Part shown: positions 3,512-39,054 of the stretch, in pieces
How positions within the stretch are numbered: the first letter of the stretch is position 1
Layout of the letters: each line of letters starts with the position of its first letter
From: Allobosea sp.
GTDB lineage: Bacteria > Pseudomonadota > Alphaproteobacteria > Rhizobiales > Beijerinckiaceae
Length of the DNA: 54,044 nucleotides
Assembly: GCF_017308015.1 (NCBI RefSeq)
Contig: NZ_JAFKFW010000032.1
Location: forward strand, 1 to 54,044
Direction of reading: 5' to 3'
Notes under the pieces: generated by a model
The model's input: the letters and a program-made list of their open reading frames with translations, nothing else
What the model was told of the DNA's origin: nothing
The model's database searches: none
Translations under genes and position numbers: made by a program

Positions 3512-3608
3512 TGATATCAATAGTGTGCTAATGATTGTCTTGCTTATATCGGCGTTTGATGCATATCAAGGAATATATTTATCGAATGATATGCAAAAAA
3601 TGCATATC
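3512..3608 (-). promoter_or_regulatory. marR operon promoter region with repeated palindromes
   Basis: This AT-rich stretch stands out from the surrounding high-GC DNA. It holds TGCATATC at 3560-3567 and 3601-3608, its complement GATATGCA at 3588-3595 (the last two forming an 8-5-8 inverted repeat), and TGATATCA at 3512-3519 just upstream of the marR ATG. TTGAT-GCAT-ATCAA at 3557-3570 is also symmetric. Palindromes of this size upstream of an autoregulated marR gene are typical operators. The exact -35/-10 could not be assigned. Confidence 0.55.
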
Positions 3609-3627
3609 AGGCTTGGCCGCCGGCGAC

Positions 3628-17623: not shown

Positions 17624-17798
17624 GACCGCATCCGTTTCGCCGACATCGCCGAAACCACATCCGCCGACCGGGCCGCGCAGGCCGCTTTCATGAGCCCGGA
17701 GGTCAACGCCCGACAGCGCGATTGCGCCCTCGGGCGCGAAACCGCTTGGCGATGAGGTTCTGCGCTGAAGGCTTCCTGAGGCAAGCAGGCAGGTCCGC

Positions 17799-36411: not shown

Positions 36412-36553
36412 CCGTTTCTGGGCGGGCGGGCAGCTCGCGAGGCTGTGCTTTCGTTCCCGGAAAAGAGGCAACGAAACGGTGCCGATGGTCGGGCCGGAAG
36501 AGGCTGTGATGCCGTGGGAGGAGCGGGGGGATCGAAAGCAGCCGCATCCGGGC

Positions 36554-36693
36554 AAAAAAAGAGCCGGCGTCCCCGAGGGGAGCCGGCTTTGAAAGTTTGA
36601 AACATCTGGCAAAACGCCAAACATCTCAGAGGGGAACGGCTGAAACGAACTCAACGCCGGGAGGAGATTGCGGAGCCCGTCTCGAACAACCGT
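36554..36693 (-). ncRNA. Candidate trans-acting sRNA (cuckoo/AbcR-like)
   Basis: An RNA of about 140 nt predicted on the minus strand. It starts 7 nt after a TTGCAA-N17-GATATT promoter. Near its 5' end is CTCCTCCC (36666-36659), an anti-Shine-Dalgarno motif typical of alphaproteobacterial sRNAs, in a loop closed by CGGG/CCCG. A middle hairpin GGC-GTTTT-GCC follows, and the RNA ends in AGCCGGC-TCCCC/GGGGA-GCCGGCT with seven T residues (36554-36560). It contains 13 nt complementary to the FMN-reductase 3' UTR. No protein frame in it looks convincing. Its position next to lsrB suggests a functional link. Confidence 0.65.
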
Positions 36694-36699
36694 GAGTTC

Positions 36700-36764
36700 A
36701 ATATCGGCCATGGCCTGCCATTTTGCAATGCAACATATCTTGGGTCCGCCATGCAGTGGTTGCA
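36700..36764 (-). promoter_or_regulatory. sRNA promoter with LysR-type box
   Basis: -35 TTGCAA (36728-36723), 17-nt spacer, -10 GATATT (36705-36700), giving a start near 36693. A dyad ATGCA-gtggt-TGCAT (36751-36765) has the LysR-regulator form T-N11-A and is centred about 65 nt upstream, the usual recognition site for LysR activators. A second palindrome TTGCAATGCAA (36723-36733) overlaps the -35. Confidence 0.6.
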
Positions 36765-36960
36765 TGAACAAGGGGCATATGGTGCGAATTTGAGCCTAAA
36801 TGATTGAGAAATATGCATTCGCTGCAGGGTGGAGGCTGCGCGGGAAGGTTGCAGGGCCTGCAGAAATCGGGCTTTTGTCCGCTACTGAACAGTTTTCAGG
36901 CGAACAGTCCGATTTTGGCGCATGCGAGATGCTGGATTGGTCACAAAACCGCCAGAATCG

Positions 36961-36982
36961 AAAAGGGCGCCTTGCGGCGCCC
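36961..36982 (-). terminator. Intrinsic terminator of lsrB
   Basis: On the minus strand GGGCGCC-gcaa-GGCGCCC runs into four T residues, 27 nt after the lsrB stop. It separates lsrB from the downstream sRNA promoter. Confidence 0.8.
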
Positions 36983-37008: not shown

Positions 37009-37899
37009 TCAATAGGTCCAGCGCTGGGCTTTCTGGATGAGGAAGTCGCGGAAGACCTGGACGCGGGCGACCGACTTCATCTCCTCGGGGTAGACCAGAT
37101 AGCTTTCGAGCTGCGGCATCTCGGTCTCGCGCATCAACTGCACGAGCGGGGAGCCGGTCTCGATCAGGTAGTCCGGCAGCACGGCGATGCCGGCGCCCGA
37201 ATCGACCGCGCGCTTCATCGCGGTGATGTTGTTGACCGTCAGATGAATCGGCCGCGGGTTGCGCTGGTCCCGCCCCATGGTGCCGAGCCAATGCACTGCC
37301 GTCAGGTAAGAGGGCGAGGTGCCGCCGAAGGAGAGGATGCGGTGGTTGTCGAGATCGTCGTAGCTCTTGGGCTCGCCGAAGCGCTTCACATAGGCCGGCG
37401 AGGCGTAGACGTGGAAGTGCACGGTGAAGAGCTTGCGCTGGATCAGGTCCGGCTGCTGCGGCTGGCGCAGGCGAATGGCGATATCGGCTTCGCGCATCGA
37501 CAGGTCGAGTTCCTCGTCGGTGAGGATGAGTTCGACCCGGATGTCGGGATAGAGGTCCATGAACTCCGAGAGGCGCGGCGTCAGCCAATGGCCGCCGAGA
37601 CCGCGGGTCGCGGTGACCTTGAGCTCGCCGGAAGGATGCTCACGCGTCTCGGAGAGCTGCGAGCGCGTGCGTTCCAGCCGCTGAGTCATCTCGCGGGCGG
37701 CGCGCCAAAGCAATTCGCCCTGCTCGGTGAGGATCAGGCCGCGCGTATGGCGGTGGAACAGCGGTGCGCGCAGCTCCCGCTCCAGCGCGCCGATCTGGCG
37801 GCTGACGGCCGATTGACTCAAGCCCAGAACATCGCCAGCTTTCGTGAAGCTGCCTGACTCTGCGACCGTATAAAAGATTCTAATGCGGTCCCAATCCAC
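37009..37899 (-). CDS. lsrB: LysR-family regulator, LsrB/VtlR type
   Basis: A redox- and metabolism-linked LysR regulator. 296 aa: HTH 'RIFYTVAESGSFTKAGDVLGLSQSAVSRQIGALERELRAPLFHRH', then the effector domain with the subgroup signature 'AIRLRQPQQPDLIQRKLFTVHFHVYASPAY' and the ending 'FRDFLIQKAQRW'. These and the trxB neighbour match LsrB (Sinorhizobium) and VtlR (Brucella, Agrobacterium), which control envelope stress and AbcR sRNAs. GGGGGAAG sits 5 nt before the GTG at 37899, where homologues begin (VDWDR), so this start is preferred to ATG 37929. Confidence 0.92.
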   Translation of the reverse strand: MDWDRIRIFYTVAESGSFTKAGDVLGLSQSAVSRQIGALERELRAPLFHRHTRGLILTEQGELLWRAAREMTQRLERTRSQLSETREHPSGELKVTATRGLGGHWLTPRLSEFMDLYPDIRVELILTDEELDLSMREADIAIRLRQPQQPDLIQRKLFTVHFHVYASPAYVKRFGEPKSYDDLDNHRILSFGGTSPSYLTAVHWLGTMGRDQRNPRPIHLTVNNITAMKRAVDSGAGIAVLPDYLIETGSPLVQLMRETEMPQLESYLVYPEEMKSVARVQVFRDFLIQKAQRWTY

Positions 37900-37941
37900 C
37901 GCGCTTCCCCCGTTATGCGTTTTTTGCATGATGGAGGATAA

Positions 37942-38043: not shown

Positions 38044-39054
<1,011 letters not shown>

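Follow-up and report, generated by a model that had tools for sequence, protein, structure and literature searches.

A predicted AbcR-type sRNA gene downstream of a cysteine-free LsrB regulator in Bosea

Gene order and anatomy of the sRNA locus

The window (the whole stretch of 54,044 nucleotides that was analysed) carries, on its minus strand, the thioredoxin reductase gene trxB (38044 to 39009; TIGR01292 above cut-off) and, downstream of it, a gene for a LysR-type regulator of 306 amino acids without cysteine (37009 to 37929). The preliminary description had recognised an LsrB/VtlR ortholog in the latter, and the best PDB match of the protein is indeed 9hh1 (E 3.4e-112, the next match having 1.3e-37), which we take to be the structure of A. 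tumefaciens LsrB. Between the end of lsrB (37009) and the end (36357) of an FMN-reductase-like ORF, the convergent neighbour on the far side, there is a gap of 651 bp, and the minus-strand elements described below lie within it, as had been stated for a gap of 0.65 kb.

The gene found there is predicted to produce an RNA of 140 nt from the minus strand (36554 to 36693, with the predicted +1 at 36693), starting 316 nt downstream of lsrB and on the same strand. In the predicted fold, this RNA forms three hairpins with -60.9 kcal/mol, i.e., a stability z of -5.2 against 200 dinucleotide shuffles (mean -41.75, sd 3.68), none of which was as stable. Stem-loop 1 (36636 to 36693, RNA positions 1-58), in which compensatory changes are seen, carries in its loop the anti-Shine-Dalgarno motif aSD1, CUCCUCCC (36659 to 36666), which is where the anti-SD motif first reported for this gene was located (CTCCTCCC, 36666-36659), and the second motif, aSD2, UUCCCCUC (36629 to 36636), lies between stem-loops 1 and 2, with seven of its eight bases unpaired in that fold. 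Both are identical to the aSD1 and aSD2 of S. meliloti AbcR, taken from an excerpt of PMC8844928, and both are invariant in an alignment of 38 sequences, formed by the window and 37 Bosea-like loci (L034-L070, for the most part labelled Bosea, whose LsrB is 93-100% identical, or 87% in L070). They are followed, always on the minus strand, by stem-loop 2 (36598 to 36628, RNA positions 66-96), by an unpaired A/U-rich stretch (36589 to 36597) resembling an Hfq site, whose role is proposed by analogy with the A/U-rich stretch that precedes the terminator and the U tail in AbcR (excerpt of PMC3712013), and by stem-loop 3 (36554 to 36588), predicted from the fold and from covariation to be an intrinsic terminator followed by U7. 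The latter corresponds, as originally described, to a GC-rich hairpin (36588-36562, with a bulge) and then T7; a simple promoter/terminator scan reported neither this terminator nor the promoter of the sRNA.

The position of the sRNA on the lsrB strand, shortly downstream of that gene, would also suit an RNA cut out of the 3' part of a trxB-lsrB transcript and not transcribed from its own promoter. This is very improbable, given that a terminator-like hairpin directly after lsrB (36965 to 36982, minus strand, terminator scan) makes a separate transcription unit likely for the sRNA, that the spacing of the conserved promoter elements does not vary in the Bosea-like alignment, and that contigs C7 and C8 of this genome carry similar RNAs around which the examined stretches contain no lsrB. 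Still more improbable is a short protein-coding gene, or a part of the 135-aa ORF at 36771-36364, as the explanation for the one frame that no stop interrupts along the RNA, in the window as in several relatives: that frame is shifted by a 1-nt deletion in 8 of the 37 Bosea-like loci, which keep the seeds, and is interrupted by a stop in L061, the loop of hairpin 2 differs in length among these loci, the stems covary, and the 135-aa ORF matches no NCBIfam family. The statement that the gap holds no convincing protein frame was therefore correct.

The promoter and the putative LsrB site

The promoter reads, as anticipated, TTGCAA-N17-GATATT on the minus strand, with the -35 at 36728-36723, a spacer of 17 nt and the -10, supported by the Bosea-like alignment, at 36705-36700, both hexamers being weak by the E. 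coli rule. The -35 is contained in a palindrome, ATGTTGCATTGCAAAA (36721 to 36736), that resembles the activation-site part of a LysR-type promoter; the element TTGCATTGCAA, which had also been pointed out, spans the -35, and ATGYTGCATTGCRA, over the same hexamer, is near-invariant in the Bosea-like alignment. Upstream of them, the LysR-type dyad CATGCAACCACTGCATG (36766-36750) is centred at about -65, in agreement with the preliminary description, and has the form ATGC-N7-GCAT, its GCAT (36751-36754) being placed at -61 to -58. At the level of sequence, the T-N11-A dyad near -65 and the second site near -35 reproduce the layout of a LysR-type promoter. The GCAT at -61, the ATG of the dyad, both seeds and most stem positions are invariant when the window is aligned with the Bosea-like loci.

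The published VtlR box, GCAT-N3-TG-N3-T, starts with its GCAT at -61 in the S. meliloti PabcR1 (excerpt of PMC8844928), which places it at approximately -61 to -49. No instance of it is found in 36681-36900 at 0 or 1 mismatch, and the window promoter keeps only the GCAT half, with the TG and the T lost. When the six MAG loci L071-L076 are set aside, 52 promoters linked to LsrB remain from other genera; among them, a dyad near -70, i.e., ATG-N6-8-GCA starting between -76 and -64, is present in 42 (shuffled mean 0.58), GCA-N8-ATG likewise in 42 (0.82) and TTGC[AG]TTGC in 22 (0.05), and 12 contain the strict form of the published box (0.28). A box matrix made from these 52 promoters places the window site fourth among 108,030 positions, with a score of 3.38, only marginally above the next position (3.38 as well), and one made from the 58 promoters outside L034-L070 (L071-L076 included) places it third. 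In both runs the two top positions fall in AT-rich inverted repeats (3578-3618) before a MarR-like gene, which is followed, as judged by eye, by an MFS-type transporter gene; these repeats are probably the operator of the MarR-like regulator itself.

With the published box only half present, with the other-genus matrix placing the window site fourth and close to background, and with a precedent in the second S. meliloti copy, AbcR2, which requires RpoH1 rather than LsrB (excerpt of PMC8844928), it could be argued that the sRNA is of AbcR type and yet not under LsrB, the dyad serving another regulator and the core promoter mainly setting expression. This is unlikely, considering that the dyad near -70 accompanies the lsrB-linked sRNA in the great majority of the other-genus promoters, far above the shuffled mean, and that the ATG and the GCAT of the dyad are invariant in the Bosea-like alignment, the GCAT being at the published position.

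Family assignment, covariation and range

Among 4227 Rfam families, the best for the window sRNA is ar15 (AbcR1/2, RF02345), matched over its full length with 28.4 bits and E 0.0018 in 1.3 kb, and a search of the own genome with the Rfam model gives the same place as the best one for ar15. The AbcR covariance-model search that had been suggested thus returned the expected family, although the score stays below the gathering score of 40, a cut-off that is an annotation threshold and not a biological feature. The second Rfam match, ErsA/Pseudomon-1 (24.7 bits with a cut-off of 50, 36637-36546), was rejected, being below ar15 and without hairpin 1. Elsewhere in the window, Rfam finds the ffh sRNA (RF01793) at 17692-17744 on the plus strand with 61.7 bits. 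As for the features of AbcR membership, three hairpins with a Rho-independent terminator are found, both anti-Shine-Dalgarno seeds (8 nt each) that S. meliloti AbcR1/2 carry stand at the equivalent structural places (aSD1 in the first loop and aSD2 between hairpins 1 and 2), and regarding Hfq binding the predicted fold has the A/U-rich unpaired stretch and the U tail. R1, a covariance model built from the 38 sequences, also matches L114-L117 at 26.6-43.0 bits, and since these are themselves above the Rfam cut-off, both ends of the family are linked. Judged by its sequence, this Bosea locus (36693-36554) encodes an sRNA of the AbcR (alpha-r15) type, the relation that had been proposed, and the stability of its fold, its seeds and its occurrence in all the Bosea-like loci agree with this.

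The presence of the sRNA in the 37 Bosea-like loci, 182-555 nt downstream of LsrB, was seen with blastn using 351 bp of the window. In the 38-sequence alignment, 7 of the 44 predicted pairs have a sequence changed on both sides. When 45 R1 matches from 42 sources are considered, in an alignment that leans to R1 because it is fitted to it, 91.4% of the cells are paired and 42 of the 44 pairs show two-sided changes (0 of 500 shuffles reach the observed values), including 11/11 pairs of the stem-loop 3 helix, each changed on both sides in some sequence; sliding the partners makes the paired cells fall to 32-45%.

Regarding the range, 77 of 80 LsrB loci have an R1 match downstream of lsrB on the same strand, and trxB is upstream of lsrB on the same strand in 77 of the 80. 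The 37 Bosea-like loci match by construction, because R1 was built from them; outside this training group, the match is present in 40 of 43 LsrB loci, 84-580 nt downstream and on the same strand, the 43 including the six MAGs L071-L076, which may be of the same genus, at least two of them being identical in sequence to same-genus genomes (G030, G033). At the LsrB loci L106, L109 and L113 no R1 match was found. These counts substantiate the suggestion that the module extends beyond Rhizobiaceae and Brucella. Across the order, with the own genome counted among the 297 searched, the Rfam ar15 model gives matches in 75 at E <=0.05, 17 over the cut-off, with LsrB beside the match in 22 of 30 loci among the matches listed, and R1 gives matches in 82 of the 297, with 15 of 19 further distinct loci LsrB-linked; absences in both scans mean little because the filters were strict and few candidates were scored per genome. 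At the DNA level, 27 of 61 genomes have no match to the sRNA, among them three same-genus genomes (G025, G030, G033); the R1 rescan recovered LsrB-linked copies in G030 and G033, and G025 gave no LsrB-linked R1 match either. In 11 genomes of other genera of the same family, no LsrB-linked R1 match was found in the fetched stretches with more candidates scored, seven of them giving unlinked R1 matches (best E 0.0031 to 0.84) and four giving none. The LsrB-AbcR module is thus widespread yet not universal, or has diverged beyond R1 in some genera.

The genome itself holds two further AbcR-like RNAs, one at C7:166516-166389 (R1 E 3.3e-9; L174 3390-3517, G000:C7) and the other at C8:98113-98237 (R1 E 9.4e-7; L175 2614-2738, G000:C8). 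The C7 copy has both seeds; in the C8 copy, CCCCTCCC replaces CTCCTCCC and the predicted stem 1 differs, and its score in the genome-wide ar15 search is weak (19.7 bits, E 0.25). An Rfam scan of both stretches at E up to 0.5 listed neither. Each has a GCAT at -61 from its predicted start, and the 58-promoter box matrix scores the C7 promoter -32 and the C8 promoter -23, so only this GCAT speaks for LsrB there; the two copies may belong to the same LsrB circuit as the window sRNA. A third putative copy, G000:C21:97538-97621 (R1 E 8.7e-4), was discarded as GC-rich hairpins without seeds. One or two extra DNA-similar sRNA copies are also found elsewhere in G003, G007 and G028, of the same genus.

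Multiplicity is likewise one of the points in which the described systems differ from the window. S. meliloti AbcR1 and AbcR2 share with it the three hairpins with CUCCUCCC in loop 1 and UUCCCCUC between hairpins 1 and 2, the Rho-independent terminator, the lsrB neighbour and the GCAT at -61, but they form a tandem pair where the window locus has one copy, and measure 114-120 nt (excerpt of PMC7143759) instead of 140; the window promoter, unlike theirs, is without the TG and the T of the VtlR box and has TTGCATTGCAA covering the -35, and its sRNA scores below the Rfam cut-off. The A. tumefaciens locus has the same order of trxB, LsrB/VtlR and AbcR (excerpt of PMC7486931), with a second tandem copy and then arsR, whereas the window has one copy and then the convergent FMN-reductase-like ORF. 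In Chelatococcus (L078 5042-5421, L079 5040-5420), the same R1 model matches at the same place downstream of LsrB, with two tandem copies, like S. meliloti, the first of which keeps a further ATGC half-site of the box.

The adjacency of regulator and sRNA is therefore not new, and the idea that it is special to this genome was overstated: the order trxB-vtlR-abcR1-abcR2 has been published for A. tumefaciens (excerpt of PMC7486931), S. meliloti abcR1/2 adjoin lsrB (excerpt of PMC3712013), and a passage of PMC8844928 describes the AbcR1 region as highly syntenic across alphaproteobacteria. What is new is the wider range, the half-kept VtlR box with a LysR-type dyad and a -35 element, and the cysteine-free regulator. 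In the open-access literature, to which the search was confined, no paper was found that treats AbcR1 together with Bosea.

Candidate targets, the regulator and the meaning of the module

The complements of aSD2 and aSD1 shortly before an ATG, GAGGGGAA-N2-9-ATG and GGGAGGAG-N2-9-ATG, occur 11 times each in the genome; after dropping ORFs <80 aa (2/11 and 5/11), 15 ORFs remained. Three control patterns gave 27 distinct ORFs, after dropping those <80 aa (4/7, 19/30 and 4/21) and leaving out L235, L236, 3 of the 33 sites of one control, and the duplicates L232 (of L231) and L255 (of L199). According to a Pfam scan, 8 of the 15 target ORFs encode solute-binding proteins (DctP, SBP_bac_5 twice, SBP_bac_3 twice, SBP_bac_6, Peripla_BP_6 and TctC) versus 2 (or 3) of the 27 control ORFs (one-sided Fisher p 0.0016, or 0.0048 with the optional third control, L238, which is 106 aa long and contains a receptor domain), in a small test whose patterns were chosen once 9-mers had already been inspected. 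Two of the eight are TRAP- or TTT-type and not ABC; one further target ORF is an ABC ATPase, and any transporter gene is found in 9/15 targets versus 5/27 controls (p 0.0087). A solute-binding-protein gene was seen in two control sets, and the one solute-binding ORF of the control GAAGGAGGA (7 sites), L196 (SBP_bac_5), was counted. L185, among the target sites dropped, lies antisense to the C8 sRNA. The window sRNA would most likely turn down nutrient-uptake genes.

The regulator differs from the one best described in a specific way. A. tumefaciens LsrB has four cysteines, reported to form a thiol switch, and its C144/C273 pair is conserved in A. tumefaciens, S. meliloti and B. abortus LsrB, whereas the window LsrB has none and holds I150 and V279 where the equivalents of C144 and C273 would be (A. 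tumefaciens data from an excerpt of PMC11975290). An alignment with L116 gives the same picture, the columns of its four cysteines being occupied by I150, V242, V250 and V279 in the window protein. These four cysteines of L116 are presumably the four of A. tumefaciens LsrB. Among 117 distinct loci, the C144/C273-equivalent pair is present in four (L114-L117), and 93 have an LsrB without cysteine after the first five aligned residues, although these shares are no census, because the loci were chosen by likeness to the Bosea LsrB or sRNA. A protein without cysteine cannot act as the Agrobacterium thiol switch; the window protein is an LsrB by descent, but not one of the thiol-switch kind. It can also be observed that trxB still adjoins lsrB, though most loci examined lack the redox-switch cysteines of A. 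tumefaciens.

The anatomy of the gene, its conservation, its covariation and the gene order trxB-lsrB-sRNA have been established by computation. Beyond them, 36693-36554 is most likely the Bosea counterpart of AbcR1, a trans-acting alpha-r15 sRNA that would be activated by LsrB and would silence uptake genes. LsrB from the adjoining gene would bind both the dyad centred near -65 and the -35 element, and would thereby activate transcription of the sRNA, carried out by the housekeeping RNA polymerase. Probably together with Hfq, this 140-nt RNA would then expose CUCCUCCC in loop 1 and UUCCCCUC in the linker, and these seeds would pair with the ribosome-binding sites of mRNAs, mainly those that encode solute-binding proteins of uptake systems of the ABC and similar types, whose translation would be blocked and whose decay would be accelerated.

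A broader and clearly more tentative reading is that LsrB-AbcR may be a widespread Hyphomicrobiales module for nutrient uptake, whose regulator, cysteine-free in most lineages seen, would respond not to thiol oxidation but to another signal, probably a small-molecule co-effector. Agrobacterium and Sinorhizobium would then have a lineage-specific thiol switch, and a single cysteine-free LsrB in Bosea might activate all three AbcR copies, of which two lie on other contigs. Within that reading, it is the lack of cysteines in the regulator that implies a signal other than thiol oxidation. The LsrB-AbcR module is carried beyond Rhizobiaceae and Brucellaceae into free-living genera, in which neither virulence nor symbiosis complicates the study of its basic role. 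Moreover, a cysteine-free LsrB separates the two jobs proposed for this regulator, i.e., the activation of AbcR sRNAs and redox sensing, and which of them is the general one becomes directly testable.
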